From Caulobacter sp. (GTDB lineage: Bacteria > Pseudomonadota > Alphaproteobacteria > Caulobacterales > Caulobacteraceae): a DNA stretch of 46,555 bases. A program made the position numbers and the translations under genes. Below, piece after piece: positions 3,260 to 31,265 of this stretch. Every line of letters begins with the position of its first letter. Positions within the stretch are counted from its first letter, which is position 1. The notes under the pieces were generated by a model. The model was not told where the DNA came from. It saw only the letters and a list, made by a program, of their open reading frames with translations, and did no database searches. The stretch covers positions 1-46,555 of the forward strand of contig JAMFTA010000027.1 in the NCBI GenBank assembly GCA_026225565.1, read 5' to 3'.

Positions 3260-5725
3260 TTAGGGCTGCGCGGCGGTCGCTGATGGCGGCGACCGTTTGC
3301 GGGGCGGCAGGCTGATCCGATCGATGGCCTGGGGATCGTCACGCAGTTTCAGATATAGCAGGCGGCCTATGGGGCTTGGGGTGGGGATCGCCGCCCCCGG
3401 AAAGCCTTCGGGAACGGCGATGGCGGCGTGGAAGCTGGGCTCGCTCGACACGGCGCCGATCAGGAATAGCTTGGATCCCGTCAGTTCGCAGGGCTGGGCG
3501 GCCCCTTCGCGGCACTTCAGCTCGCGCAGGATGGGAAGGCGGACCAGGGTGGCCAGCGGCTGCCATTCCCCCGCCACGCCGCCGACGACGATCCTGAACT
3601 GTAGCGGTCCGAAGGCCGAGGCGCCCAGGGCCTTGGCGGGGTCTAGGGTGGCGACAGCGACCTGGGCGTCTTCGAAGGTCAGGCCGTTTTCCGTCGAGAG
3701 GCTCGTGGAGGCTGCGCCATTGGCGGCGGCGACCTCGATCGTCTCGCGGGTCGAGAAGCGTGGGGGCCGTTGTGCACGGACGGAGAAGGTCAGTCGATCG
3801 GCTTGCGCCAGGGCCGCCGGGTCGGTCAGCTTGATCGCGATGGCGCCCCCCTGGCTCGCCGGGTCGGGCGCGGCCGGCTGAACGCTCTTGCCGATCAGGG
3901 CGACGCTAGGCCGAAAGGCCGCGATTTCGCTCTTCAGGTTGAGGGTGCGTCCGTCCTTCAGCGCGATCCTGACGGGAAGGGTCTTGCCGGCCTTCAGCGT
4001 TTCGGCGCCCGCCTCGTCGGTGGTGATCAGGGACAGCTCGTCGCCGTCTGCGTTCGATGTCAGGGCGTTCGGCTGGAACGCGATTCCGCCGAGGCTGAGG
4101 CTAACCACTTCGTCCAGGCGCCTGCCCTTCAGAACGCCAGAAAGGTCGCCGGCATGAAAGGTGAAATTGTCGAGATGGCCGGCCTGGGCGAAGGTCTGTA
4201 CCGGGATCGAACTGGGTTCCTTGATCCCGTACTGCCCGATCAGCAAGCTGATGCTCCCGGGCTGGGCCTCGGCGAGGGGTACGGTGACATTAAGCCTGTC
4301 GGGCGCCTCGATTTTCCACACCAGCGGCTTGGCCTCGCCCGACGGCGGCTGCAAGGCGATGCTCTCGATGCAGGCGGCGTCCCGGCCCTGCAAATGAACG
4401 GTGTCGTCGCGGCCGACGACCAGCGCCTGTTGATCGCCATCGGCGAGCCGCCAGGGCTCGGGGTGGGGGTTCTGCAGGCGATATTCGGGGCCATCGAATT
4501 GGGTGAAGCCCCAGTACCCCGTGAGCGAGCCGTCTATCACCTCGCCGAACTTCGTCGCGTCGTAACCCTTGGCGTCGATCACCAACCCGCCCTTTTCCGC
4601 ATCCGCGTGGGCCGGCAGATCGATGGTCTGGCCGCCTTTATTCCGTATCCGGAAGATGATGTCGTGGGCGTACTGAGTGGAGTAGACCAAGGGCGCGCCG
4701 TCCAGATGCAGGACCAGGTCCGAGCGCGCGGCGCAATAGGCTTCCTTGGGGTCCACGGGCTGAAGCGGCGGCGCCTGGGACTGCTCCACGGCTGGCAGGG
4801 CGGCGACGATCACCGAGAGCGGATTGTGAAACGACGGCGGGGTGTTGAGCAGCAGCGACAGCTTGTCGTCGTGCAGGGTCGCGATGGCGGGAATGTATTG
4901 GTATTGCGCCGTCTGGAAGGAATCCATGATGCGGGCGATGTCCGACACGGCGGCGATATAGGGGCTGTAGTAGCCATAGCCGGCCTGGGGCGCGGCGCTG
5001 AGTTCCAGGGCGAGGTCGGCGGGGGAGCCGGATGTGAGGGTTTCGACGATGGAGGTGCTGTGCCCATCGTTGAGCACAAGCCCGTCCGGCCCATGCATCA
5101 GGCAGGCGGCCTGCAGATCCGGCGTCTTCTGGAAGCAATCGTCGTTGAGCTTGATGGTCAGGCTGCGGGCCAGGAGGGGCGAGACGGTTTTCAGCCAGTC
5201 TGGATCGGCCGGATTGCCCTTGCGGACCACCGAGAGGAAGGCGTCCAGCCGCGAGCGGTCCAAGGTCGCCTGGTTGAGGTCCTGGGAGGCGCGGACAAAG
5301 GCGCCGGGGCGCCCGCGAACGGCGCCGATCAAGGTCTTAAGGTCGCCATTTGTGTGGGGGGCGAGGAAGACGATCACCTGCTGGGCGTCGGCCGGCACGG
5401 TGATGTTTAGCCCATTGCGGCCGGTGTGGTTCCACGTCTGGGCGCTATAAAACCATTTGGAGGGCGGAGGATTGGTCGCCCCGCGGAGGAAGGCGGCGAC
5501 CAGCAGATACTGCACCGATTGGGTCGCTGGCAGATCGGCCTTGATCCACAATTGGTCCCCGGGCGAAAGGTTGGGAGCCTGCGACACCGGCAGCGTGACG
5601 CCGCCATGGGTCACCCTGACGCTCAGGGACGGGCCCGCCAGGTCGAACGGCGGCGGATCGGCGGCGGCCATGGCGGGCGCCGCCCAGCACAGCAACAGGC
5701 AGCAAAGAAACGAACGCAGAGCCAT
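3260..5725 (-). CDS. Large exported protein of unknown function (821 aa)
   Basis: A clear Sec signal peptide (MALRSFLCCLLLCWAAPAMA, cut after AMA) indicates export. I do not recognise the family. The mature part is rich in proline, glycine and short hydrophobic beta-type segments. The region around residues 520-610 (DLSGVLKGRRLDEVVSLSLGG and following) resembles the immunoglobulin-like or IPT/TIG repeats of surface proteins. Several cysteines are spread through the middle (CFQKTPDLQAAC, CIES), so disulfides are possible. No catalytic motif or membrane anchor was found after the signal. It converges with the globin gene and is divergent from the ABC exporter gene at 6049. The ATG at 5725 is chosen because the signal peptide starts exactly there and CGGAAGA precedes it. 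Function is unknown. Confidence 0.85.
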   Translation of the reverse strand: MALRSFLCCLLLCWAAPAMAAADPPPFDLAGPSLSVRVTHGGVTLPVSQAPNLSPGDQLWIKADLPATQSVQYLLVAAFLRGATNPPPSKWFYSAQTWNHTGRNGLNITVPADAQQVIVFLAPHTNGDLKTLIGAVRGRPGAFVRASQDLNQATLDRSRLDAFLSVVRKGNPADPDWLKTVSPLLARSLTIKLNDDCFQKTPDLQAACLMHGPDGLVLNDGHSTSIVETLTSGSPADLALELSAAPQAGYGYYSPYIAAVSDIARIMDSFQTAQYQYIPAIATLHDDKLSLLLNTPPSFHNPLSVIVAALPAVEQSQAPPLQPVDPKEAYCAARSDLVLHLDGAPLVYSTQYAHDIIFRIRNKGGQTIDLPAHADAEKGGLVIDAKGYDATKFGEVIDGSLTGYWGFTQFDGPEYRLQNPHPEPWRLADGDQQALVVGRDDTVHLQGRDAACIESIALQPPSGEAKPLVWKIEAPDRLNVTVPLAEAQPGSISLLIGQYGIKEPSSIPVQTFAQAGHLDNFTFHAGDLSGVLKGRRLDEVVSLSLGGIAFQPNALTSNADGDELSLITTDEAGAETLKAGKTLPVRIALKDGRTLNLKSEIAAFRPSVALIGKSVQPAAPDPASQGGAIAIKLTDPAALAQADRLTFSVRAQRPPRFSTRETIEVAAANGAASTSLSTENGLTFEDAQVAVATLDPAKALGASAFGPLQFRIVVGGVAGEWQPLATLVRLPILRELKCREGAAQPCELTGSKLFLIGAVSSEPSFHAAIAVPEGFPGAAIPTPSPIGRLLYLKLRDDPQAIDRISLPPRKRSPPSATAAQP

Positions 5726-7920: not shown

Positions 7921-9885
7921 TCAATATTGACTACTGACTCCGATCAAATGGTAGGCGAGAGCAATCCACACCATCATTCCAAAAGCAGCCGCTAGGAGGA
8001 GCGCATAGACCTTGGCGAACCAACTTGCAGCCTCTTTGAAGACCATCGCCAGATTCCAACCCGCCGCCCCAAGGCCTCCGACGAACGCCAGTAGCGCTGT
8101 GAGCTGCGCCGCGTGAAGGAGGATGTCCACATCCGCCCCGTTTGTGGCGGAGATGATGTCCAGCACCGCACACCAAAGCCCGACCGCCACAAGACCGAGG
8201 GCCGCGCAAAGCCGCACAAGCCGATAGGCGGTGGCGCGCGGGCCCGTTAGCGGGAAGGCCTTGCCACAGCGCCAGCGCACCAGGGCCACCCCCGGCCATA
8301 GCAGGGCGGTCAGGATCAGCAACACCATCGCCGCGAGCGCCAACGGCGTCTCCAGGCCGGTGGCGGCCAGGCCGGATGGGCGCAGGTAGATGAAAATCGG
8401 CGCTGCGGAGTCAGAGCTCCAGCGCACGACCTTGCCGTTCGCGACCGTGGCCTCGATACGATCATGGCCGCCGAGCTCCTGCCACAGGAAAGGTTTGATC
8501 TCGTAGAACTTTTCCTGCTGACCCGCGGGGGCCGCGGAGATGGTTCCGTCGGCGTTGGCGGTCACGACGGTTGGACTGACCAGTTTGACCAGGGACACAA
8601 AGGTCGAGTCGGAGCGGCGGGTGCTGATATAGGCCCCCGCGATCATCGCGGCGTGCGCCTTGGCGACAGCTGGATCGAGGCGGCCCAGGGAAGGCGGCGC
8701 TCCGGGGAAGTAGCGGTCGGCAAATCCGTCGAACAGGCTATTGCGAAGAAATTCGCCCAAGCCATCCTTGCCGCGCGCGTTAACGGAGACGAACAGGCCG
8801 ACGTGATCGTCGAGGAACAGGCTGAGATCGCTGTGGAAGTAGTTCAAATCCCCGGCATGGGCGATCACCCGATGGCCGTTGATGTTCTGCTGGTAGAAGC
8901 CCAGCGCATTGCCGTCCAGATCCGGAAAGGACTTGATGATGCTCGTCTGCATCGTTTGAGCGGTTTGCGCCTGCAGGATTTGGCCGTTCCCGTAGCGCCC
9001 CAGTTGCAGATGGGCGATCATGAAATGCGCCATGTCGTCGCCAGTGGCGGAGAGCCCGCCCGCCGGCGACACGTCGACGATTTCGAAGCCTGCGCCCGGC
9101 TTATCCCAGGTGTCGTAGCCCGCCGACATATGCGGTTGCATCGCCAGGGGGAGCGGCTGTTGGAAGGTGGAATGGCCCATGTCCAGGGGCAAGAAGATGT
9201 GCTGCGCGATATAGTCATCGAACGACTGTCCCGAGACCCGCTGGACGATATAGCCCGCCAGAGCCGCGCCATAGTTGGAGTAGCCGGGCCCGTCCTGGGG
9301 ATCGAAGATGCGCGGGGGCACATAGCGCTTCAGCACCTCGCCCAGCGGCGGCGGGGGCGCGCCGAAGCTGACCAGGTCCTTGGCCGTTTCCGAGAAGCCG
9401 CCCCGGTGCGTCATCAATTGGCGCATGGTGACGGGAAGGCCGTTGCGGGCCGGGGTCTTGAAATCCAGATAGGCGTTGACGTCCGCATCCAGATTGATCT
9501 TGCCCTCCTCGACCAACTGCATCACCGCCGTCCAGGTGAAGAGTTTGGAAGTCGAGCCTGGCCGAAACAGGGTGGAGCGGGGATCGACCGGCGTGCGCTT
9601 CTCGTAGTCCGCGTAGCCATAGCCCTTTTCGAGCAGCACCTGGCCGTCCTTGACCACCACGACGACCGCGCCGGGGGTCTGCGCCGTATTGAGGGCGGTC
9701 GGCACGAGACCGTCGAGCCAGGCTTCCAAATCGGGCGCGGTCAATGGGTGGGCTGGCGTGGACACGGCGCCAGGCGCCGGGATCGCGGCGGCGGCGGACG
9801 ACGGACTAAGCCAACCGGCGCTCAAGAGAAGGCCGGCGGCAATCAGCAGGCCCTTGGCGGGACTCGGCGTGGTCTTGATGAACAT
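7921..9885 (-). CDS. Serine hydrolase of the class C beta-lactamase/CubicO type with C-terminal membrane helices
   Basis: A signal peptide is followed by a beta-lactamase-fold domain. The motifs are SxxK in FRPGSTSKLFTW (S111/K114 from the ATG start), YxN in GYSNYG (Y202/N204) and HAG (about residue 343) in place of KTG. This pattern is usual for D-alanyl-D-alanine peptidases, D-aminopeptidases and esterases of the family. After about residue 500 there are roughly four hydrophobic segments, which would anchor the enzyme in the inner membrane with its active site in the periplasm. The gene is the last of a minus-strand set with a dipeptide epimerase and a TonB receptor, which favours a peptide or peptidoglycan-fragment substrate. 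ATG at 9885 is preferred; a GTG at 9894 would add three residues. Confidence 0.87.
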   Translation of the reverse strand: MFIKTTPSPAKGLLIAAGLLLSAGWLSPSSAAAAIPAPGAVSTPAHPLTAPDLEAWLDGLVPTALNTAQTPGAVVVVVKDGQVLLEKGYGYADYEKRTPVDPRSTLFRPGSTSKLFTWTAVMQLVEEGKINLDADVNAYLDFKTPARNGLPVTMRQLMTHRGGFSETAKDLVSFGAPPPPLGEVLKRYVPPRIFDPQDGPGYSNYGAALAGYIVQRVSGQSFDDYIAQHIFLPLDMGHSTFQQPLPLAMQPHMSAGYDTWDKPGAGFEIVDVSPAGGLSATGDDMAHFMIAHLQLGRYGNGQILQAQTAQTMQTSIIKSFPDLDGNALGFYQQNINGHRVIAHAGDLNYFHSDLSLFLDDHVGLFVSVNARGKDGLGEFLRNSLFDGFADRYFPGAPPSLGRLDPAVAKAHAAMIAGAYISTRRSDSTFVSLVKLVSPTVVTANADGTISAAPAGQQEKFYEIKPFLWQELGGHDRIEATVANGKVVRWSSDSAAPIFIYLRPSGLAATGLETPLALAAMVLLILTALLWPGVALVRWRCGKAFPLTGPRATAYRLVRLCAALGLVAVGLWCAVLDIISATNGADVDILLHAAQLTALLAFVGGLGAAGWNLAMVFKEAASWFAKVYALLLAAAFGMMVWIALAYHLIGVSSQY

Positions 9886-9897
9886 CGCTCTCACACT

Positions 9898-9927
9898 CTT
9901 TTCTGTCGCGGGCTTTTCTGTCGCGGG
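9898..9927. repeat. Perfect tandem duplication, 2 x 15 bp
   Basis: CTTTTCTGTCGCGGG occurs twice with no gap (9898-9912 and 9913-9927), in the short gap between the epimerase stop and the serine hydrolase start. On the coding strand it lies just before the hydrolase start and so could change the spacing of the upstream leader. It looks like a recent slippage duplication. Confidence 0.9.
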
Positions 9928-9936
9928 CGGCGGAAT

Positions 9937-10920
9937 CTAGGCGGCTGCGCCCCAAAGGGCCTCGGGGCACCAGAGTTCGCCGTGGTCGTAAAGCGCGGGA
10001 ACATCCCGGTCGCCGCTGAGGAACATGGGTCCGTCCAGGTCGACAAAATCGCAGAGCTGGCCCAGGACGAAGGCCGGGGCCATGGAGAGGGAGGTGCCTG
10101 ACATGCAGCCCACCATCACCTTGAACCCCAGCCGCTTGGCCTCTCGCGCCATCGCCAACCCCTCGGTGAGACCGCCGCATTTATCCAGCTTGATGTTGAC
10201 CACGTCATAGAGCCCCACCAGCCCCTGCATGTCCGCGAGGCTTTGCAGACTTTCATCCGCAGCCAGCGGAATGGGAGACTTAAGGCCCTTGAGCGATCCG
10301 TCCTGCCCTACCGGGACAGGTTGTTCGATCAAGGCGACGCCGGCCTGGACCATCTCGGGCAGCAACTGTTCCAGCGAGGATCGGCTGAAGCCCTGGTTGG
10401 CGTCCACGCCGAGCCAGACGTCCGGCCTGGCCGCCCGCACCGCACGCACGCACGCGGCGGCGTCCTGGTCGGTCAGCTTCAGCTTGATCGCTTGCGCCTG
10501 GGTGTAGGCGCGGGCGGTGCGGGCCATCTCATCGGGCGTACCGGCGCCGACGGTGAAGGTGGTTTTAAGGGGGATCGGCGAGGGTGCGCCCGCCGCCCTC
10601 CACACCGGCGTCCCCGTGCGCTTGGCGTCCAGATCCCACAGGGCTGCGTCGATGGCGTTTCGCGCGCCGCCGGCTGGGAGAAGGTCCCGCAAAGCGTCCC
10701 GGTCGAGCCCGCGCTCGATCTGGAGTCGCACCGCCTCGATCTGCTGGGTCATGCTCTCAGGCGTTTCACGGTGATAGTAGACCCCGCCGGCTTCACCCCG
10801 ACCGACTGCGTCGCCGTCCTGCAAGGTCGCGACCAGCACTTCGGCGTGGGTGAAGACATAGTCGGTGATGCGGAAAGGCTCGGCGTAAGCCCAACGTTCG
10901 CTATGCAATTTAAGATACAT
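9937..10920 (-). CDS. Dipeptide epimerase (L-Ala-D/L-Glu epimerase-like, enolase superfamily)
   Basis: The 327-residue protein belongs to the muconate-lactonizing-enzyme branch of the enolase superfamily. Two active-site lysine segments are visible: KLK in AIKLKLTD (K146/K148) and IKLDK in VNIKLDKCGG (about 244-247). The metal ligands are D173 (GVDANQGF), E199 (IEQPV) and D222 (ADES). IKLDKCGGLTE and VGCMSGTSLSMAPA are typical of dipeptide epimerases, which interconvert L-Ala-D-Glu and L-Ala-L-Glu or similar dipeptides. The frame is open back to about 11238 inside the receptor gene, but MYLKLHSERW at 10920 is the natural N-terminus and sits seven bases after the receptor stop. Co-transcription with a receptor and a serine hydrolase supports a role in using peptidoglycan-derived or mixed-chirality dipeptides. 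Confidence 0.9.
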   Translation of the reverse strand: MYLKLHSERWAYAEPFRITDYVFTHAEVLVATLQDGDAVGRGEAGGVYYHRETPESMTQQIEAVRLQIERGLDRDALRDLLPAGGARNAIDAALWDLDAKRTGTPVWRAAGAPSPIPLKTTFTVGAGTPDEMARTARAYTQAQAIKLKLTDQDAAACVRAVRAARPDVWLGVDANQGFSRSSLEQLLPEMVQAGVALIEQPVPVGQDGSLKGLKSPIPLAADESLQSLADMQGLVGLYDVVNIKLDKCGGLTEGLAMAREAKRLGFKVMVGCMSGTSLSMAPAFVLGQLCDFVDLDGPMFLSGDRDVPALYDHGELWCPEALWGAAA

Positions 10921-10927
10921 GGGGCGC

Positions 10928-13159
10928 TCAAAAGGACCTGTCGATGCTGACGCCCACCGTGCGCGGCTGCAGCACCGGCGCCTTGATGTCGATGGGCGAG
11001 CCGATGGCGTCGTTGAAGTAACTGGAGGCGGACAGATAGGCCCGCCGGTCGGTGAGATTCTTGGCGAACAGGGAAAGGGTCCACCCTTTGCTGCGCACGC
11101 CGAGATGGAGGTCCAAAACCCCGTAAGCCTTAGCCGGATAGCCGGCGGGCCCTCCATTTTCGATTTCCCCCTCAGGCGCCGAAAACTCCGAGCCGGTGTA
11201 GCGCCATCCACCCCCGGCGAATCCGCGCCATGTGTCATTCAGCGCCACCGCGTACTCCCCGGTCAGCGCGCCGCTCCACGAAGGAACACCGGGCAGGCGG
11301 GCGCCCTTCACTGTGCCAAGGGAGGCGACGTCGCTGGTCAGGACGGCGTCGGTGTAGGTCAGGTTGGCGCCGAGAGTCAGACCGGGCAGGGGCGAAAGGG
11401 TCCCATTGAAATCGAACCCCTCGCTGCGCGCCGCGCCCGCATTCTCGATGGCGCTTTCCGCGCCGATGGTCACGCCAACCTGGATCTTGCTCCAGTCGAT
11501 GTAGAAGGCCGATAGATCCACTGTTGCGCGTCCGTCCAGGAAGGTGGACTTCACCCCGGCCTGATAATCCACCAGCGTCGAGGAGTTGAATTGCGACGGC
11601 ACGGTCTCGCCCGACCGGACGATATTGGGCCCGCCGGGCTGATAGCCGCTGGCGATGCGGGCATAGACCAGGATGTGCTTGGTGAAGTGGAAGCTCGGAC
11701 TGATTGCGTAGGTCGTGACGCCCTCGGAGGACTTTCCAGGCAGGGTCACGACCGCCCCCGCAGGATCGGCGGGGTTTAGGAGCGCGCCGCCCGCGGTCTG
11801 CAGAAAGCTCTGCTGGTTGTGGGCGTAACGCAGGCCGGCGGGGACCTCGAACCGGTCAGTCAGGTGATAGGTGGCGTGGCCAAAAAGGGCGTATTCCTCA
11901 TAGAGGCTCGGGAGATTCACATATTCCAGCGGGTTCAGCGCCGGCTCCCGCACGCCGCTGGCGTCATAGGCGTTGAAGACTTCGTAGTTGGAGCCGCGCT
12001 CATGAGTGTAGAAGCCGCCGACCAGCCACTCCAGCGCCTGCCCATCGGGCGAGGCGAGGCGGACCTCCTGGGAGAACTTCTCCAGGCGATAGCGTTCATC
12101 GAAGTCCGACTGCCCCGGCCCCGGACCGCCGAAGGCGCCCAGATAGACGCCGATATAGTCGGTAAGATCCTCCATGATGCTGTTCTTGAATCGCTGATAG
12201 CTCGACACCGAGGTCAGGTTGGCCCAATGCAGGTTCCAATTGACCGTGGCGTCGTAAAGCTGGAGTTCCTGGGTGTAGGGTTCGCTGCGAGTGTTGATGT
12301 TCGAAAGACTTCCACCGAACGGGCGCCCTGTCGTCTGCTCTAACGCTACGATCGACTGGCTATCGGCGTGGCTTCGCTGGTAGAGGGCGGATAGGGCGAT
12401 GGACACATCGGGGGTCGCCTTCCAAAGGGCGGCGATGCGGCCGCCGCCTTGATTGAGGGCGTTGTCCCCCTTCTTGCCGGTGGTGGCGTTGTCGATGAAG
12501 CCAGGGGTGGCTTGATCGTAGACGGAGGCGCGGATCGCCAATTTATCATCGATGATGGGGATATTCACCGCGCCGCGAAGGCCGCCGCCAGCGCCGCCGC
12601 CGTTCTGAACCCCAAAGAGATCGCCCCCCATCCGACCGGAGAATTGGGTCAGATTTGGCGAGGCCAGGTCGTATTTGATCAGGCCGCCCATGGTGCTGGC
12701 GCCATAGAGGGTGCCCTGCGGCCCGTGCAGCACCTCCACACGATCAAGATCGTAGGGCATGAGGTCGATGGCCAAGCCATTGCCGCCCTGGAAGCTGCTG
12801 CTCGATCCGATGGGTGTGTCGTTCAAATAGATGCCGACCTCTGAGGCTGAGCCGATAGGGCCGATGCCATCCAAGGCGATGGTCGTCTCTCCGGGCGCGC
12901 CGTTGCTGGTGATCGCCAGGCCCGGCACGTAACCCGCCCAATCGATCAGCTGGGTGGACTGCATACGTTCCAAGTCTCCGCCGGAGAGCACGCTGATCTG
13001 AAGGGGAACGTCTTGCAGCTTTTGCGTCCGCTTCTGTGCCGTAACCACCACTTCGGGCGGGCTTGTGGAATCGGCGGCGGCGTGCGCCGCCAATGGAAAA
13101 ATGACGGCGCTCGCCAGCACGGCGGAGCTCAGAAGGTCCCAGCGCAGCTTGGATGTCAT
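10928..13159 (-). CDS. TonB-dependent outer-membrane receptor
   Basis: From the ATG at 13159 the protein has 743 residues. A signal peptide (MTSKLRWDLLSSAVLASAVI, ending near AHAAADS) is followed by the plug domain (PEVVVTAQKRTQKLQDVPLQ, then LERMQSTQLIDWAGYVPG and RVEVLHGPQGTLYGASTMGG). A long barrel ends in LQPRTVGVSIDRSF with terminal Phe. The SPPEVVVTAQ stretch probably contains the TonB box. The frame extends to a GTG at 13201, but the ATG at 13159 is preferred: GGGGGGA precedes it and the signal peptide begins there. It heads the operon with the dipeptide epimerase and serine hydrolase, so its ligand may be a peptide or muropeptide. This ligand is inferred from neighbours only. Confidence 0.94.
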   Translation of the reverse strand: MTSKLRWDLLSSAVLASAVIFPLAAHAAADSTSPPEVVVTAQKRTQKLQDVPLQISVLSGGDLERMQSTQLIDWAGYVPGLAITSNGAPGETTIALDGIGPIGSASEVGIYLNDTPIGSSSSFQGGNGLAIDLMPYDLDRVEVLHGPQGTLYGASTMGGLIKYDLASPNLTQFSGRMGGDLFGVQNGGGAGGGLRGAVNIPIIDDKLAIRASVYDQATPGFIDNATTGKKGDNALNQGGGRIAALWKATPDVSIALSALYQRSHADSQSIVALEQTTGRPFGGSLSNINTRSEPYTQELQLYDATVNWNLHWANLTSVSSYQRFKNSIMEDLTDYIGVYLGAFGGPGPGQSDFDERYRLEKFSQEVRLASPDGQALEWLVGGFYTHERGSNYEVFNAYDASGVREPALNPLEYVNLPSLYEEYALFGHATYHLTDRFEVPAGLRYAHNQQSFLQTAGGALLNPADPAGAVVTLPGKSSEGVTTYAISPSFHFTKHILVYARIASGYQPGGPNIVRSGETVPSQFNSSTLVDYQAGVKSTFLDGRATVDLSAFYIDWSKIQVGVTIGAESAIENAGAARSEGFDFNGTLSPLPGLTLGANLTYTDAVLTSDVASLGTVKGARLPGVPSWSGALTGEYAVALNDTWRGFAGGGWRYTGSEFSAPEGEIENGGPAGYPAKAYGVLDLHLGVRSKGWTLSLFAKNLTDRRAYLSASSYFNDAIGSPIDIKAPVLQPRTVGVSIDRSF

Positions 13160-13205
13160 GACATGTCCCCCCGCAAAAGGCCGCCCGCTGGCGGTCGACA
13201 CAAAA

Positions 13206-13240
13206 ATGATATTGATATTTCACTAACACGACAATATGTT
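13206..13240. promoter_or_regulatory. Overlapping divergent sigma70-type promoters with possible regulator site
   Basis: On the plus strand TTGATA (13212-13217) and TATGTT (13235-13240) are 17 bases apart and face the RpiR-type regulator. On the minus strand TTGTCG (13234-13229) and TATCAT (13211-13206) are also 17 apart and face the TonB receptor operon. The two share nearly the same DNA. An imperfect inverted repeat at 13207-13222 (TGATAT, TATTTCA as outer parts) covers the minus -10 and plus -35 and could be the regulator's operator. Confidence 0.6.
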
Positions 13241-13350
13241 ATTTGAATACCATTCTACGCACGGCGCCGGCCCTCGCACAGAGGGTGGCTTGGCTAAAGG
13301 TTCGGAAGCGGCGAGGGTCTGGCGGACGCAGGCCGTCGATGGGGTGCCCA

Positions 13351-14199
13351 ATGCTACGCATTGAAAAGACGATCAAAGACGACTGGAAGAGCTACACGCC
13401 CTCCGAGCAGAAGCTTGCCAGCTTCTTCCTCAGTCGCCTCCACGACCTGCCGTTCGAAACCGCCGCCTCCATCGGCAAGCAGGTGGCGGTCAGTCCAATG
13501 ACGGTGGGACGCTTCATTAAAAAGCTCGGCTACGCCGACTTGCGGGACATCAAGGACGAGTTACGCGGCCAGGGGGGCGACGGGGCCAGGGCCGAAGCCT
13601 CGACGGCGACCTTCGTCCCCGCGCCTTTGAAGGCGAAGATCAAGGGGCTGACGGACGTCTACAAGATTCCGCAGACGGCGGAATGGCCGGCCATCGTCTC
13701 GCTGATCGCCTCGGCGCCGTTGGTGCATGTGGCGAGTTTTCATGTGGGGCGCTTCATGGGACTGGGGTTCGCCACGGCCCTGCAGAACCTTCGCCCGCGC
13801 GTCTATGTTTCCGACGGCGGCGATGGCGCCTACGCCGATGTCCTGCTCAACCCGGAACCGGGCGCCTGCCTGATCCTGATCGATTTTCGTCGCTACTCGC
13901 GCCATTTCCGGCTGCTCGCCGAAGAGGCGGCGGCGCGCAACATACGCACCGTGATCCTGACCGATGTCTACTGCCACTGGGCAAGGGCCATAACCCCGGA
14001 TGTGCTGATGATCGAAACGGATTTCGGCATCAGAAGCCTCAGCATGGCGCAGCTTTTGTTCGAACTGCTGCTCGCAGCCATCGCCGACCAGCTCAAAGAC
14101 GCCGACGCTCGTGTCGAGGCGGCCCACCAACTGCGCAAGAACTTCATCGGCTTCGCCGAACCCGAAGAGACAAGGCCCCGCGATAAGACCCTCAAATGA
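13351..14199 (+). CDS. RpiR-family transcriptional regulator (HTH plus SIS domain)
   Basis: The 282-residue protein begins MLRIEKTIKDDWKSYTPSEQKLASFFL, the canonical start of RpiR-family regulators. The HTH follows at about residues 30-60 (IGKQVAVSPMTVGRFIKKLGY). A SIS sugar-isomerase domain comes next, here with VHVASFHVGRFMGLGFATAL and ILIDFRRYSRHFRLLAEEAAARN. Family members such as MurR sense phosphosugars or related ligands. The frame is open back to a TTG at 13243; ATG 13351 is chosen from the family N-terminus. It lies between the divergent receptor/epimerase/hydrolase operon and the POT carrier gene, so it most likely controls both. The ligand is unknown. Confidence 0.88.
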   Translation: MLRIEKTIKDDWKSYTPSEQKLASFFLSRLHDLPFETAASIGKQVAVSPMTVGRFIKKLGYADLRDIKDELRGQGGDGARAEASTATFVPAPLKAKIKGLTDVYKIPQTAEWPAIVSLIASAPLVHVASFHVGRFMGLGFATALQNLRPRVYVSDGGDGAYADVLLNPEPGACLILIDFRRYSRHFRLLAEEAAARNIRTVILTDVYCHWARAITPDVLMIETDFGIRSLSMAQLLFELLLAAIADQLKDADARVEAAHQLRKNFIGFAEPEETRPRDKTLK

Positions 14200-14236
14200 G
14201 CTCTGTCCAAGGGGCGCCGTTCCCGAAAGAATGCCG

Positions 14237-15613
14237 ATGTCACAGATGAATTCGCGCCCCGCTGGGGCGTCGGCGCGGCGTCCCCAAGACTGGTTCGGAC
14301 AGCCTCGCGGCCTGACGGTCCTGTTCCTGACCGAAACCTGGACGCAGTTTTCCTTCTTCGGTATGCGGACCCTGCTGGTCTACTACATGACCAAGCAGCT
14401 GATGATCACTCAAGAAAGATCGTCGTTGATCTATGGCGGTTACGCCGCCGCCGTTTATCTGACGCCGATCTTTGGCGGCGTGATCGCCGACCGGCTTATC
14501 GGCAAACGCAACGCCGTCATCATCGGCGCCCTATTGATGGCGTTTGGCCACTTCATGATGGCCTTCGAAGGCCTGTTTTTCTTCGCCCTCGCCGCCATCG
14601 CCATCGGCAACGGGTTTTTTCTGCCGAGCCTCTCCAGCCAGATCAATTCCCTCTATTCCCAGGGCGATCCCCGGCTCGCCTCCGCCTACAACGTCTATTA
14701 CGTCGGCATAAACCTCGGCGCATTCCTGGCTCCCTTTGTGTGCGGAACCCTGGGGGAGGTCTTTGGCTGGCACTGGGGGTTCACCGCCGCCGGCGCCGGA
14801 ATGCTGATCGGACTTTTCACCTATCTGGCCGGCCTGCGTTATCTGCCCACCGAGACGCGCCAGCCCAAGGCGCTTCGCACCAAGGCCGCAGGCGAGGATC
14901 ATCGCCGCCGGTTTTTGCTGTTGTTCGGAATCATGGCTGTGGTGATCGTTTTTCGGGGGGCCTACGAGCAGGAGGGAAACACCATCGCCTTGTGGGCGGA
15001 CGTGGGCGTCGATCGGCATGTCACCTCCCAATGGTCTGTGCCGCTGACCTGGTTTCAGGCGCTCAACCCGCTGCTGATCTTCATCCTTACTCCCCTGTTC
15101 GTCGGCTATTGGACGCGGCTCGCCAAGCAGGGGCGCGAACCGTCTTCGGTCAGGAAAATGGTGGTCGGCGCGGTCATTGTCGGCCTTTCCTATGTTCTGA
15201 TCGCGGTGGTCTCCGCCTTTGCGGATGCAGCGCACACACGGTCGAGCTGGATATGGCTGACGATATTCTTCATCGCCATGACCGCCGGCGAACTCTTCAT
15301 CCTTCCAGTCGGACTTGGCCTTTTCGGACGACTGGCGCCGCCGGGTTTCGAGGCGACGGCCATCGCCACCTGGTTCTTCGCCGGTTTTGCCGGCAATCTT
15401 CTCGCTGGCGGCCTTGGAACCCTATGGTCAACCCTTTCCCAGCCGGTCTTCTTTGCGATTGTCGCCGCGACGGCCTTGGTCGCTGCGGCTCTGCTCACCG
15501 TATTTCTGTCCGCCGGAAAGAAAGCTGAGCAGGCGCTGGCGACGGGCGTCCTCGATCCAACCGAGCCGCAAGGATTGGCGCGCGCGAATTGCGATCCTAG
15601 CCCCGCCCCTTGA
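14237..15613 (+). CDS. POT/PTR-family peptide transporter
   Basis: The 458-residue membrane protein has about 12 helices. Family signatures are strong: GGYAAAVYLTPIFGGVIADR, then YNVYYVGINLGAFLAPFVCG. POT carriers import di- and tripeptides with protons through the inner membrane. The helix-1 ExxERF motif, which couples proton and peptide in the family, reads ETWTQF here (E33 kept, second Glu to Thr, Arg to Gln). That may change coupling or specificity. The start at 14237 is preferred because GAAAGA lies six bases upstream; ATG at 14231 directly abuts that site. It follows the RpiR-type regulator by 37 bases and is probably co-transcribed. It is a natural inner-membrane partner for the nearby TonB receptor and dipeptide epimerase. 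Confidence 0.9.
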   Translation: MSQMNSRPAGASARRPQDWFGQPRGLTVLFLTETWTQFSFFGMRTLLVYYMTKQLMITQERSSLIYGGYAAAVYLTPIFGGVIADRLIGKRNAVIIGALLMAFGHFMMAFEGLFFFALAAIAIGNGFFLPSLSSQINSLYSQGDPRLASAYNVYYVGINLGAFLAPFVCGTLGEVFGWHWGFTAAGAGMLIGLFTYLAGLRYLPTETRQPKALRTKAAGEDHRRRFLLLFGIMAVVIVFRGAYEQEGNTIALWADVGVDRHVTSQWSVPLTWFQALNPLLIFILTPLFVGYWTRLAKQGREPSSVRKMVVGAVIVGLSYVLIAVVSAFADAAHTRSSWIWLTIFFIAMTAGELFILPVGLGLFGRLAPPGFEATAIATWFFAGFAGNLLAGGLGTLWSTLSQPVFFAIVAATALVAAALLTVFLSAGKKAEQALATGVLDPTEPQGLARANCDPSPAP

Positions 15614-20179: not shown

Positions 20180-21607
20180 CTAGCCCACCTTCGGACGTTG
20201 CCAGTTCGGCCGCTTGGGCTCCATGGCCATATACTTGTCCACGGCCTTCTCGAAGTGACGGATGCGGATCTCCTGGTAGTTGCCCAGGGTCAGTCCGTGC
20301 TTGGCGCTGGCCTCCAGCCCCTCTTGCTGGGCGTAGAGATTGTCGGTGTCCTGATCGAGAATCCGGCCAAAGCCTGGGTCCATGCCCTCCGCCTCGGTGA
20401 AGGACTGGCCGTCGGTGAGCACCACCGGTTCGGCCGGAGCCGGGCGGGGGCCGTCCAGCGGGACCGGACGCATGAACATCACCTCGTAGATGCAGCGGCG
20501 ATGGTCGCGGGGATCGGGCCGGAAGCGATAGACCATCGGCAGGGAGATGCCCGGAAAGACATAGGTGTTGGGGAAGACGGTATAGGAGAAGCAGTCGAGG
20601 ATTTCCGAATCCGAGATCTTGCTCAGATCGCTGTTGGTCGCCTGCTCGAACATGCCGCGGAACATGTCCGCCATGGCCTGCCGGGCGGTCCCCTCCCCGA
20701 CGGTCGGCCGTTCCCCGGCCAGCATACTGCCATCGCCGACCGTGAACTGGTCCAGGATGTCCTGCTCGCTGTACTGACCCTCCAGGTGGGGGCTGCAGAC
20801 GCCGAGTGGCGAGATGAAGCGGTTCACGTGCTCGCCATAAACGTCGTACTGCGAGTTGGCGTCGGCGTTGGACGGCGCCACCTGCGGATGGGTCTCGATG
20901 ACGTGATAGGCCTCCAGAAAGGCCTCGACCGTCAGCTTCCAGTTGGCCGGGAAGGCTTTCTGGACATGGACGTGGATGTAGCGGTCTTCGAGCTTCCAGG
21001 CCTTGAAATGGGCCAGCGCCTCCTCACCGAGGTAGTCCTCCAGGGTCGGCGCGTCGGCATCCATATTGACCCACACAAAGCCCCCGAGCGTCTGGACCCG
21101 CGCCTGGGGCAGCTTGAAGGTCTCGGGATCGGCGTGCGGGAAGTCCCAGTTGCAGACGATCCGCTTGTTGCTCCCGTCCAGGTTCCAGCTCCAGCCGTGG
21201 AAGGGGCATTGGAACTCGGCCGCGCTGCCCTCGGTGCCCGACGGGCGCAGCTTGGTGCCGCGATGGAGGCAGGCGTTGAAATAGGCCCGGATATCGTCCT
21301 TGGCGACGCGGGTGACGATGAACGAATAGGAGCCCAGATCGTAGACATAGTAGTCGCCGACATTGGGGATGTGCTCCTCGCGGCAGGCGAATTGCCAGGT
21401 CCGCGTCCAAAGGCGCTCCATCTCCCCCTTGGCGTAGGCGGGGTCGATATAGCGGTCGGTCGAGATGTCTTCGTCGCCGAGGAACTCATACGACTCCGAA
21501 CGCACCCAGCCCGGCGCGACCACCTTGTCCTTGGCGATGATTTCCTGCGTGCTCAAGGCCGGGCAGCGGGCCTCCCCGGACTCCAGCTTACCAACCTGGA
21601 TGTTCAT
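20180..21607 (-). CDS. Rieske non-haem iron oxygenase, alpha subunit
   Basis: The 475-residue protein has a Rieske [2Fe-2S] domain with CLHRG (C113, H115) and CPFHGW (C134, H137). A catalytic domain holds mononuclear iron ligands H235 and H240 in EAYHVIETH, and probably D338 in SEILDCFSYTVFPN. These enzymes add oxygen to aromatic rings or other C-H bonds with electrons from a ferredoxin/reductase. The bridging residue between the Rieske and iron centres, Asp in naphthalene dioxygenase, is Glu here (E232), as in carnitine oxygenase CntA. No beta subunit gene is adjacent, so an alpha-only trimer is likely. It lies between the amidohydrolase and indolepyruvate oxidoreductase genes, in one probable operon. 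The substrate is unknown. Confidence 0.92.
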   Translation of the reverse strand: MNIQVGKLESGEARCPALSTQEIIAKDKVVAPGWVRSESYEFLGDEDISTDRYIDPAYAKGEMERLWTRTWQFACREEHIPNVGDYYVYDLGSYSFIVTRVAKDDIRAYFNACLHRGTKLRPSGTEGSAAEFQCPFHGWSWNLDGSNKRIVCNWDFPHADPETFKLPQARVQTLGGFVWVNMDADAPTLEDYLGEEALAHFKAWKLEDRYIHVHVQKAFPANWKLTVEAFLEAYHVIETHPQVAPSNADANSQYDVYGEHVNRFISPLGVCSPHLEGQYSEQDILDQFTVGDGSMLAGERPTVGEGTARQAMADMFRGMFEQATNSDLSKISDSEILDCFSYTVFPNTYVFPGISLPMVYRFRPDPRDHRRCIYEVMFMRPVPLDGPRPAPAEPVVLTDGQSFTEAEGMDPGFGRILDQDTDNLYAQQEGLEASAKHGLTLGNYQEIRIRHFEKAVDKYMAMEPKRPNWQRPKVG

Positions 21608-21634
21608 CTCTGGTCTCCGATTCCCAAAACGTGG

Positions 21635-22909
21635 TCACGCCGCCGCGCTGCGCCGTTCGGCGCTGGTGTCGTTCTTGTAGAGTTGACCGTCCTTCATGAT
21701 CATCGCCAGCCGGGTCTTGTCGGTCAGGATGTTCAAGTTCTTCAGCGGGTCGCCGTTGACCAGCAGCAGGTCAGCCAGCGCGCCTTCGCTGATCGTGCCC
21801 AGGTCGCCGCCGTCGCGCATGGCCAAGCCGCCGTTGCGCGTGGCGCAGAGCAGCGCCCCTTCCGGGGTGTAGCCATAGTAATCGACGAAGAACTGCAGGT
21901 CGCGGGCGTTGGTGCCCTGCGCGCTCCAGGTGAAGCCGTAGTCGCCGCCGATCAGGTGGCGGATGCCGCGCTTGCGCAGTTCGGTGTGGGTCTTGGCGGA
22001 GGCTTCGAGCAGGACGTCGATGCCCATATAGCCGCCGACCTCGGCCGACAGGCCAGCGCCCGCCGCCTCGTTGTTCATGATGGTGTGGAACAGGCTGACC
22101 GTCGGGACCACGAAGATGCGATCCTTGGCGGCCTCCAGCATGTCGAGGGTTTCTTCGTCGGAATATTCGCAGTGGAACAGAACGTCGACGCCCGCGCGCA
22201 GGCAGTTTTGAGTGCCGGCGATCGAGCGCGTATGGGCGTTCACCTTGCGGCCGAAGCTGTGGGCCGTCTCCACCGCCATGCGAATCTCGTCCAGCGACAT
22301 GGGCGTCGTGTTCGCGGGGGTGTTCGGGTAGAAGGGGTCGCCCGACACGTCGAGCTTGATATTGTCGCAGCCTTCACGGCAGCAAAGCCGAACGGCCTTA
22401 CGCATTTCTTCGGGTCCATCGACGACGATCGAAGGCCCGTTGCGCGGGTTGTGCAGCCTAGTCTCGTCGCCCATACCGCCCGTGACGGTGATCTCCAACG
22501 ATCCCGCGCGGATGCGGGGACCCGGCAGGCGGCCGGCGTCGACCTCATTACGCACCGCAACATCCAGGCGCAGCTTGGCGGCGGAAGCGCCATAGGCGCT
22601 GGTGAAACCATGATCCAGGAGCACCTTAGCCACGCGCGCCGTGAGCAGCGTGTGCTCTTCAGGCGGCGGCGCGATAAGGTCTTCGGTCGAGCCGACCGCC
22701 TCGAACGACAAGTGCGCGTGGCCTTCGGTCATGCCAGGCATGAGCGTCATGCCCGCGCCGTCGATGACATCGCAATCCGTCCGCCCGAGCTGCCCCGGCG
22801 TGCGCGACACCGCACGAATCCGGTTTCCCTCGACAAGGACGTCGCCAGGGAAGGCGCCGCCGCCGCTTGCATCCCAAACCTTCGCGCCGGCGATCAGGGT
22901 GTTGCCCAT
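21635..22909 (-). CDS. Amidohydrolase-superfamily metal-dependent hydrolase
   Basis: The 424-residue protein has the usual composite beta-sandwich at both ends around a TIM barrel. Metal and catalytic residues are all visible: HAH (H64, H66), the likely carboxylated lysine K185 in DNIKLDVSG, H226 in VNAHTRS, H246 in LFHCEY and D323 in GGDYGFTW. The set resembles imidazolonepropionase/prolidase-like members that hydrolyse cyclic amides, lactams or related C-N bonds, but substrate cannot be assigned. ATG 22909 is chosen because AGAGGA lies eight bases upstream; an in-frame ATG at 22927 would place that site inside the gene. It heads the operon with a Rieske oxygenase and the indolepyruvate oxidoreductase, so it may process a ring-oxidised intermediate. 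Confidence 0.9.
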   Translation of the reverse strand: MGNTLIAGAKVWDASGGGAFPGDVLVEGNRIRAVSRTPGQLGRTDCDVIDGAGMTLMPGMTEGHAHLSFEAVGSTEDLIAPPPEEHTLLTARVAKVLLDHGFTSAYGASAAKLRLDVAVRNEVDAGRLPGPRIRAGSLEITVTGGMGDETRLHNPRNGPSIVVDGPEEMRKAVRLCCREGCDNIKLDVSGDPFYPNTPANTTPMSLDEIRMAVETAHSFGRKVNAHTRSIAGTQNCLRAGVDVLFHCEYSDEETLDMLEAAKDRIFVVPTVSLFHTIMNNEAAGAGLSAEVGGYMGIDVLLEASAKTHTELRKRGIRHLIGGDYGFTWSAQGTNARDLQFFVDYYGYTPEGALLCATRNGGLAMRDGGDLGTISEGALADLLLVNGDPLKNLNILTDKTRLAMIMKDGQLYKNDTSAERRSAAA

Positions 22910-23121
22910 TGGATCGTTCCTCTCCATCCGCGTATCGACGAACCGGCCTTAGAATACCGCCTCGCGCCTCTGCTTCTGAATGATCGGACATGCACCCGCA
23001 TTTGTCTGCGTCTGCTAGCGCCGCGCCCCGCCGTTGTCTGGCGCGGACAAGTTCGCCATCGTTAGCCGCCTGGACCCCACCCACGACCGGGAGGATGAGG
23101 GCGGCAAGATGGCGATAGTCG
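22910..23121. promoter_or_regulatory. Divergent intergenic region with an inverted repeat
   Basis: This region separates the divergent amidohydrolase operon and VOC gene. TTGTC at 23035-23039 and GACAA at 23047-23051 form an inverted repeat with a seven-base centre, a plausible operator. A similar TTTGTC half lies at 23003-23008. No classical promoter hexamers were obvious. Confidence 0.4.
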
Positions 23122-29334: not shown

Positions 29335-29440
29335 CTGCGATCTTCGCACCTCATGACGGCTCAGCCGGCCTGAGGAAATGGCCGAACGCCCTTCGGCGAG
29401 ACGTCAGCCGCCTCGACATACACGTGAAAGGATCTGCGCC

Positions 29441-31255
29441 ATGTCCTTCGAACTGAACAAGAAACTCTCCGCCAAGCGGGAACCGCTGCCGACCTCGGTC
29501 AACATCGATCCGGTCACCGCCAGCATCATTCGCGGCGGCCTTGAGACGGTGTGCTTCGAGGCGGCGACCTTCCTGGGTCGAGCGGCGTCGTCGCCGATCA
29601 TCAACCAGTCCAACGAGCGCAACGCCGCCGTCATCGACGCCCAGGGCCGCCTGGCCGCGGTCTCGATCGGCACCCCGCACTTGACCTTCGTATCCCAACT
29701 GACCGTGCGATACGGGCTGGGCCTCTTCGACGAATACGATTGGGGTCCGGGGGATGTCTTCGTAGGCAACGATCCAGACTATGGCGGCGGCCACCTGCCC
29801 GATTACAACGTCTATGCGCCAGTGTTCGACGACGCTGGCGAGCTGGTCATGATCCAGGCGTTGCAGGCGCACCAGGGCGACACCGGCGGCAAGGACCCGG
29901 GCGGCTTCACGCTTGAAGCGACCGACATCTTCACCGAAGGCCTGGCGATCCCCTGCCTCAAGCTGGTCCATCGCGGAGAGAAGCGCCGGGACACCATCAA
30001 GCTGCTTGAACGCAACAACCGCTTCCCCTCCTTCGCGGGCGACCTCGCGGCCATGATCGGCGGCGTGCAGCATTCGGCGAAGCTGCTTCAGGAGCTAATC
30101 CGCAAATGGGGTACAGATTCGGTCCGCGCGGCGATCAACTACAACATCGACGATACGGAAAAGCGCTTCCGTGACGAGGTGGCCAAATGGCGGGATGGGA
30201 AATATTCCGCAGACGTTCTGATCGATCACGACACCTTGGGAACCAAGGATATCAAAGTCCATGTCACCTGCACGGTGGCGGGAGATCAGCTGACGGTGGA
30301 CCTCACCGGCACCGATGACCGCCCCAATCTGGTGGGGGTGTGGAACACCTTCGCCAATAGCCGCGGCTATATCATGACCCAGATCGCCGCATCGATCGAC
30401 CCCGCCATCGTGAAGAACGAGGGCCTGTTTCACGGGGTCGAGATGATCATTCCGGAAGGCACCATAGCCCATCCGCCGATCAATAAGCCTGCGGCGTTGG
30501 GATCCTTCCACCCGGCCTGCGAAATCACCGAAGCGGTTTGCTTAGCGCTGTCGCAGGTGGCGCCGGCGCGTTCGGCGCCGCAGGTCTATAAGATCGGAAT
30601 GCCCAACGCCGTGATCGGCTTCGACAAGACTGGGCAGATGTGGATGGATCAGGGGGTCGACGCTCGGACCATGGACGTATCCGCCGTTCAGGGCATCGAC
30701 GGCTGGGGCTCGTGCCCCGTAGCCCTGGGCGCCCTGCTTCTGGCCGAGGCGGAAGACGCCGAAAGCCGGTTCCCCATCATCAATCTGAACCGTGAAATGA
30801 CCATGGACTCCGAGGGCGCGGGCCGCTGGCGCGGACAACCCGGCAGCCTCAACGTCAAGAAGGTCATGGAACCGACCATGGCCATGGCCTGGATGGTCTC
30901 GTCGGATCACCCCATGAGCGGCCTATTGGGCGGAGACCCCGCCAGTCCCTATGGCAACCACTTCGAGGTCGGCACTCCGAACGAATACAAGATCGAACTG
31001 ACCGCGCGGGCGCAACTGCCGGCCGGCGCCGTGATCGCCTATCAGCACGGCGGCGGCGGCGGGTTCGAGCCGGCCATCCTGCGCGACCCGGAAGCGGTCA
31101 AGGAAGACGCCCTCGACGAGATCGTCAGCATCTCTCGCGCGCGGACTAAGTACGGCGTCGCCTTTACCGGAAGCGTAGAAGAGTACGACCTCGCGGTCGA
31201 TGTCGCAGCAACCGAGGCGCTAAGACAAAACATGCGCGCGACTGCGGCGGCTTAA
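29441..31255 (+). CDS. HyuB: hydantoinase B/oxoprolinase-type subunit
   Basis: The 604-residue protein is of the hydantoinase B / acetone-carboxylase alpha family. Typical segments are NIDPVTASIIRGGLETVCFEA, GDVFVGNDPDYGGGHLPDYN, LGSFHPACEITEAV and the C-terminal glycine loop HGGGGGFEPAI. With HyuA it forms an ATP-dependent enzyme. Known members open hydantoin or 5-oxoproline rings, or carboxylate acetone and acetophenone. The ATG at 29441 is chosen because AAAGGA lies upstream and the protein begins like its relatives. The frame is open to 29378. It ends 10 bases before HyuA, so the two are co-expressed. In an oxygenase cluster, a carboxylase or cyclic-amide hydrolase role is equally conceivable. 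Confidence 0.92.
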   Translation: MSFELNKKLSAKREPLPTSVNIDPVTASIIRGGLETVCFEAATFLGRAASSPIINQSNERNAAVIDAQGRLAAVSIGTPHLTFVSQLTVRYGLGLFDEYDWGPGDVFVGNDPDYGGGHLPDYNVYAPVFDDAGELVMIQALQAHQGDTGGKDPGGFTLEATDIFTEGLAIPCLKLVHRGEKRRDTIKLLERNNRFPSFAGDLAAMIGGVQHSAKLLQELIRKWGTDSVRAAINYNIDDTEKRFRDEVAKWRDGKYSADVLIDHDTLGTKDIKVHVTCTVAGDQLTVDLTGTDDRPNLVGVWNTFANSRGYIMTQIAASIDPAIVKNEGLFHGVEMIIPEGTIAHPPINKPAALGSFHPACEITEAVCLALSQVAPARSAPQVYKIGMPNAVIGFDKTGQMWMDQGVDARTMDVSAVQGIDGWGSCPVALGALLLAEAEDAESRFPIINLNREMTMDSEGAGRWRGQPGSLNVKKVMEPTMAMAWMVSSDHPMSGLLGGDPASPYGNHFEVGTPNEYKIELTARAQLPAGAVIAYQHGGGGGFEPAILRDPEAVKEDALDEIVSISRARTKYGVAFTGSVEEYDLAVDVAATEALRQNMRATAAA

Positions 31256-31265
31256 GGGGAGATAG

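Follow-up and report, generated by a model that had tools for sequence, protein, structure and literature searches.

Gene content and conservation of the locus

The stretch of DNA analysed here, referred to as the window, comprises 46,555 nucleotides of contig JAMFTA010000027.1 from a Caulobacter sp. (assembly GCA_026225565.1; 3.69 Mb, 242 contigs, 98.4% complete). Positions 7921-15613 hold five open frames in two divergent units, encoding a TonB-dependent receptor, an epimerase (EPI) and a serine hydrolase (SH) on the minus strand and an RpiR-family regulator and a POT/PTR2 peptide carrier (POT) on the plus strand. An initial annotation had proposed that these genes use peptidoglycan fragments or D-amino-acid peptides such as L-Ala-D-Glu; all five frames lie where it had placed them, and each scores above the Pfam cut-off for the family that it had named. 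The receptor gene (10928-13201, minus strand; PF00593 118.6 bits, PF07715 63.5 bits) most likely starts at the ATG at 13159. EPI (9937-10920, minus strand; PF13378 97.6 bits, PF02746 34.3 bits) resembles enolase-superfamily dipeptide epimerases and N-acyl amino acid racemases, and its start is corrected here from 11238 to 10920, 7 nt past the stop of the receptor gene. The gene for SH, an S12 hydrolase (7921-9894, minus strand; PF00144 202 bits), begins 42 nt beyond that of EPI.

SH, POT and TonB receptor genes recur near relatives of EPI and at none of 13 control loci, and one relative keeps all five genes; because of this, the grouping is beyond chance. The module is conserved and functionally coherent. 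When genome contigs were searched with EPI, 431 stretches were confirmed, and 80 of them were kept as loci. Full flanks (10 kb on either side) are available for 47, and the neighbouring genes were clustered and scored against the window genes and against recurring families. An SH-type hydrolase lies near the epimerase in 38 of the 47 full-flank loci, a TonB receptor in 28, a POT in 24 and a DgcN homologue in 42 (63 of all 80 loci), with at least three of these four in 30, although several loci are near-duplicates from Sphingopyxis or copies from the same genome and the counts are therefore not independent. Other recurring neighbours in the full-flank set are a membrane protein with no Pfam match (31), an XRE-cupin regulator (29), an Amidohydro_3 protein (24), which we take to be N-acyl-D-amino-acid-deacylase-like, and a second S12 hydrolase (19). 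The controls, housekeeping-type epimerase loci of relatives, carry none of these neighbour genes (0/13). They come from 20 fetched regions, four of which are of the module type (L113-L116); three of the remaining 16 were excluded because they share genes with the module, namely L118 (TonB receptor and an SH-like gene), L120 (TonB receptor, POT, S12b and DgcN) and L127 (Amidohydro_3, DgcN and an RpiR-like gene). With all three put back, 13 of the 16 controls are clean.

Relatives of the module occur in records titled Alphaproteobacteria, Gammaproteobacteria and Verrucomicrobia. The arrangement of the window is retained in L003, a locus from a Caulobacteraceae metagenome-assembled genome (MAG), in which a POT-RpiR unit diverges from a TonB receptor-EPI-SH unit; its epimerase is 65% identical to EPI and is directly preceded by the receptor (1073 bits), and its regulator scores 416 bits. 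Within the same order, a close EPI (E <= 1e-95) is found in 13 of 398 genomes, the window genome counted, and several of these genes again adjoin a TonB receptor, SH and DgcN. A large expansion is seen in the MAG SZAS-87, with five epimerase loci (L014, L020, L038, L064, L067) and 11 DgcN matches.

The epimerase and its probable substrate class

The AlphaFold model of EPI (pLDDT 94.8) adopts the enolase-superfamily fold, and the solved structures that superpose best on it are 4gfi (Z 47.1, 324 residues, rmsd 1.4) and the E. coli L-Ala-D/L-Glu epimerase 1jpd; the VIA-align structure lists for EPI and SH merely re-rank Foldseek matches, and families missing from them are no evidence. The features of the dipeptide epimerase group, a KxK motif with an opposite lysine (K146, K148, K244), three acidic metal ligands (D173, E199, D222) and a C-terminal DxD motif (D294xD296), are complete in EPI, as in all 91 module sequences. 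The DxD motif was set aside as a dipeptide marker, since every homologue has it, including those linked to DgcN. In a tree of 107 sequences the module enzymes form a single clade of 91, and the other 16 fall on the side of the housekeeping enzymes and DgcA. Node supports are 0.96 for the window with L003 and 0.99 for L041, L012, L007 and L010.

The two groups differ in the loops around the active site. Position 20, in the 20s loop, is Arg in 15 of the 16 sequences on the housekeeping/DgcA side and in none of the 91 module sequences, which have Gly (86), Asp (2, including the window), Ser (2) or Asn (1). Asp20 of EPI aligns with the Arg of 1jpd and 4gfi, a residue that, according to the YkfB literature, contacts the glutamate side chain of the substrate. 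Likewise, the module clade has a GVYY-like 50s loop, and most other sequences have a PYAR-like one. The clade of EPI is likely to represent a third specificity class beside the L-Ala-D/L-Glu epimerases and DgcA, because its catalytic set is intact, both loops are altered clade-wide, and L120 and L127, DgcN-paired enzymes outside the clade, retain Arg20. To judge from these residues, EPI probably acts on a dipeptide other than L-Ala-D-Glu.

The proposal that the locus is a peptidoglycan-fragment module and EPI an L-Ala-D/L-Glu epimerase, as the initial annotation had it, now appears unlikely. EPI shares its fold, catalytic lysines, metal ligands and DxD motif with the known enzymes of this type (E. 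coli YcjG, 1jpd; B. subtilis YkfB, 1jpm; A. tumefaciens 4gfi), two of which are its nearest solved homologues. However, it departs from them in the substitution of Asp20 (mostly Gly in the clade) for the 20s Arg, in the GVYY sequence in place of a PYAR-type 50s loop and in its gene neighbours, and it scores far below the cut-off of the L-Ala-D/L-Glu epimerase model NF011708 (245.3 of 343 bits). Furthermore, the window genome encodes a further epimerase, of the housekeeping type (C74), an AmpG-family permease (365.7 of 350 bits on TIGR00901, presumably the AmpG model) and, also elsewhere, an AnmK gene, while the recurring neighbours of the module relatives are S12 hydrolases, Amidohydro_3 proteins and DgcN rather than muropeptide enzymes. 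These findings speak against both L-Ala-D-Glu as the substrate and peptidoglycan as its origin. A role in the cell's own peptidoglycan recycling was set aside given the separate epimerase, the AmpG-type permease and AnmK, with LdcA, Mpl and NagZ outside the comparison. Peptides derived from the wall may nonetheless be among those that the module takes up.

Somewhat less probable still is that EPI racemises N-acetyl- or other N-acyl-D-amino acids in the manner of DgcA, in which case its substrate would be an N-acylated amino acid and not a dipeptide. DgcA is the NCBIfam model that EPI matches best, although narrowly below its cut-off (NF042940, 391.7 of 400 bits), most module relatives have in the locus a homologue of DgcN, an enzyme of acidic D-amino acids, and the DgcN-DgcA pathway is described as a known route for D-Glu (PMC12363236, PMC10845958). 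On the other hand, the window genome has no DgcN, with no match to PF07755 or NF041892 in the 98.4% complete assembly, and DgcN was likewise not found in the genomes of L003, L007, L010, L012, L041 and L074, which lie near the window in the tree, nor in that of L046; among 14 genomes checked, eight have it. Arg20, moreover, is kept by the DgcN-paired L120 and L127 and not by the module enzymes. The DgcA model itself discriminates poorly, because the C74 paralogue scores 471 bits, above the cut-off, in a genome without DgcN. The module can thus exist without DgcN, and since genomes free of DgcN carry it, a dipeptide is weakly favoured over an N-acetylated substrate.

Position 272 varies within the clade (Asn 73, Cys 17, Thr 1) and is Cys in 7 of 7 sequences of the DgcN-free branches. 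The residue follows the presence of DgcN in the locus (Asn in 59 loci with and 14 without, Cys in 5 with and 12 without), an association that was set aside because the sequences are related to one another. A basal placement of the DgcN-free branches was not adopted, as node supports are mixed (0.51 at the node above).

Hydrolase, carrier and regulator

SH carries the three motifs of family S12, SxxK (S114-K117), YxN (YSN, Y205-N207) and HxG (HAG, H346-G348), in a beta-lactamase fold, and apart from their middle letters these are invariant in 30 homologues. The AlphaFold model (pLDDT 86) places a catalytic domain, predicted to be secreted, at about 50-400 and four C-terminal membrane helices at 515-647. 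Such segments number four in 63 of 69 SH sequences, three in 4 and none in 2, both of which are truncated copies of the window gene. Membrane helices C-terminal to an S12 domain are the arrangement of the membrane-anchored DL-peptidase/ClbP type. Matches of the model in the PDB include 2qmi, IS11 esterase, the Lip3 DL-peptidase 9sn1 (function from the PDB title), D-amino acid amidase, R61 DD-peptidase and ClbP, and the top matches of a 30-sequence SH profile are 2qmi, 4gdn, 9sn1 and alkaline D-peptidase. Among the 50 structure matches listed, only 9sn1 (residues 50-657; Z 37.2, 471 aligned, rmsd 4.4) and the full-length ClbP entries (7mdf, 52-619) extend into the membrane part. SH differs from them in having four membrane helices against three in ClbP, in an identity of about 20% and in that no natural-product biosynthesis genes were seen beside it. 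ClbP acts on natural products as a D-amino peptidase (PMC9889268). The likeliest assignment of SH, judged from the model, is a periplasmic membrane-anchored D- or DL-peptidase. Matches to class C beta-lactamase models are far below cut-off, and SH was not taken as a resistance gene.

The carrier (about 14231-15613, plus strand) belongs to the POT/PTR2 family in the wide sense (PF00854 176.4 bits against a cut-off of 27; TIGR00924 282.3 against 130.2) and departs from the canonical symporters. In an alignment on PepTSt (4aps), whose residue numbering is used here, 39 module POTs were compared with 31 controls, which were drawn from the loci of each genome's top Pfam match and are hence canonical by selection. 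All 31 controls keep Glu22, Glu25, Arg26 and Lys126, whereas Arg26 and Lys126 are each found in 0 of the 39 module POTs, Glu25 in 36 (lost in the window) and Glu22 in 14. The window protein reads ETWTQ at the ExxER motif and has Leu at Lys126. As in PepTSt, Arg33, Asn156 and the TM7 and TM10 glutamates are retained by most or all module POTs. The window motif in TM1, ExxTQ, is also distinct from that of DtpC (NxxEY, of the Q/NxxEY type), and no Asp is among the commonest residues of the module POTs in the stretch aligned with DtpC Asp392. The DtpC study explains that the ExxER Arg makes contact both with Glu and with the C-terminus of the peptide; DtpC, which has lost it, shows an altered selectivity based on side chains. 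Because the module POTs lack both this Arg and the DtpC motif, it is plausible that they carry peptides with D-residues or other unusual ones, and ordinary di- or tripeptide symport by them is doubtful. A canonical POT is encoded elsewhere in the window genome, at C77. At another locus of this genome (L181, G000:C142, 8372-11979) a second divergent POT is directly followed by an S15-type peptidase.

The regulator gene (13351-14199, plus strand) most likely starts at the ATG at 13351, to judge from L003. Its domain scores are both marginal (HTH_6 29.2 bits against a cut-off of 28.3, SIS 26.9 against 25), and the protein had no match among solved structures. A match to SapR (NF046014, 148.6 of 500 bits), a model named after a Burkholderia regulator, was discarded as a functional lead. 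Between the divergent units lies an imperfect inverted repeat with 14-nt arms (13201-13245), and within it the 16-base element TGATATNNCACTAACA (13213-13228, plus strand), common to the corresponding intergenic region of L003. Both overlap the region at 13206-13240 that had been proposed to bind RpiR. With at most one mismatch allowed, the genome holds a single copy of the element, whose orientation relative to the genes is reversed between the window and L003, an arrangement compatible with an operator. Nevertheless, an operator at 13201-13245 is only suggested, because 13 of 500 shuffles gave a similarity as good as that observed, for a pattern that itself came from the comparison.

Elsewhere in the window, the 821-residue product of 3260-5725 (minus strand) begins with a signal-like segment and has no match in Pfam or NCBIfam, and a Rieske ring-hydroxylating oxygenase alpha subunit lies beside an amidohydrolase (20180-22927, minus strand). 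A hydantoinase B and A pair of the oxoprolinase family (29378-33350, plus strand) is possibly another locus for the use of amides or cyclic amides.

A proposed route for D-amino-acid peptides

Taken together, the five genes are best read as an inducible uptake-and-use module for short D-amino-acid peptides, with an epimerase of a third class that probably does not act on L-Ala-D-Glu; we give this reading a probability of roughly 0.55. The TonB receptor would bring oligopeptides into the periplasm, where the membrane-anchored SH would cleave them beside D-residues, and the atypical POT would import the short pieces to the cytoplasm. There, EPI would convert the C-terminal D-residue of an L-Xaa-D-Yaa dipeptide to the L-form, leaving ordinary dipeptidases to finish the degradation, and RpiR, acting at about 13201-13245, would govern the two divergent units. 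The substrates, the direction of transport and the regulation are what we infer from gene content and conserved residues. The extra genes recurring in relatives, which come from D-amino-acid families (DgcN, Amidohydro_3 and the second S12 hydrolase), count toward the use of D-peptides, for which general or non-ribosomal peptides are a more likely source than the cell wall. The outer-membrane-to-cytoplasm route of the initial annotation thus holds as regards a co-inherited module for D-residue peptides with an intact epimerase and a D-peptidase-like S12 enzyme, and is not supported in its link to peptidoglycan and L-Ala-D-Glu; it was right in kind and probably wrong in the substrate it named.

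Several observations weigh against this reading. SH, POT and TonB receptor occur all together in just 17 of the 47 full-flank loci, many loci being incomplete, and the RpiR regulator is clearly recurrent in L003 only. Arg17, conserved in 85 of the 91 module epimerases, might instead pair with an acidic side chain, which cautions against over-reading the loss of Arg20. Esterases and beta-lactamases share the S12 fold, and esterases appear in the same match lists as the peptidases. A POT without the canonical residues may carry no ordinary dipeptides or lack the usual proton coupling.

That the locus serves defence or competition, with SH destroying peptide antibiotics that contain D-residues, or lipopeptides, and the rest of the cluster salvaging the pieces, is improbable, for while SH overlaps over its full length with Lip3 and with ClbP, which acts on natural products (PMC9889268), the cluster consists mainly of uptake and catabolic genes, and no efflux or biosynthesis family is found among the annotated recurring neighbours.

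The uptake-and-use module has a partial parallel in the mlr cluster for microcystin degradation in sphingomonads, in which four genes encode peptidases and an assumed oligopeptide carrier (PMC12474180). Both would combine peptidases with a carrier for a D-residue peptide, and an M81/MlrC-like protein is found in 4 of 80 module loci; the mlr cluster as described has no epimerase or TonB receptor, and the window module has no M81 peptidase. A microcystin-type function was rejected, M81 being present in those four loci alone and absent from the window. A literature search covering the gene combination, dipeptide epimerase specificity and DgcN/DgcA found no description of the cluster, with a limited coverage that does not imply its absence from print.

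More tentatively, and with a likelihood clearly below even, the cluster may be a dedicated D-peptide catabolic system of Proteobacteria and Verrucomicrobia, in which two co-adapted undescribed subfamilies, the third-class epimerase and a POT without Arg26 and Lys126 for D-residue peptides, are joined by a TonB receptor and a DL-peptidase of the Lip3 kind, with most lineages having gained DgcN and this branch lacking it. D-amino-acid peptides are a persistent fraction of dissolved organic matter and also occur in antibiotics, and the conserved cluster would serve as a marker for bacteria living on them. Apart from the cluster, the POT subfamily without Arg26 and Lys126 may be of interest to transporter biology and would test which parts of ExxER and Lys126 peptide transport needs. 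Finally, the automatic labels L-Ala-D/L-Glu epimerase and DgcA, nearly reached by the models, may mislead for the whole clade.

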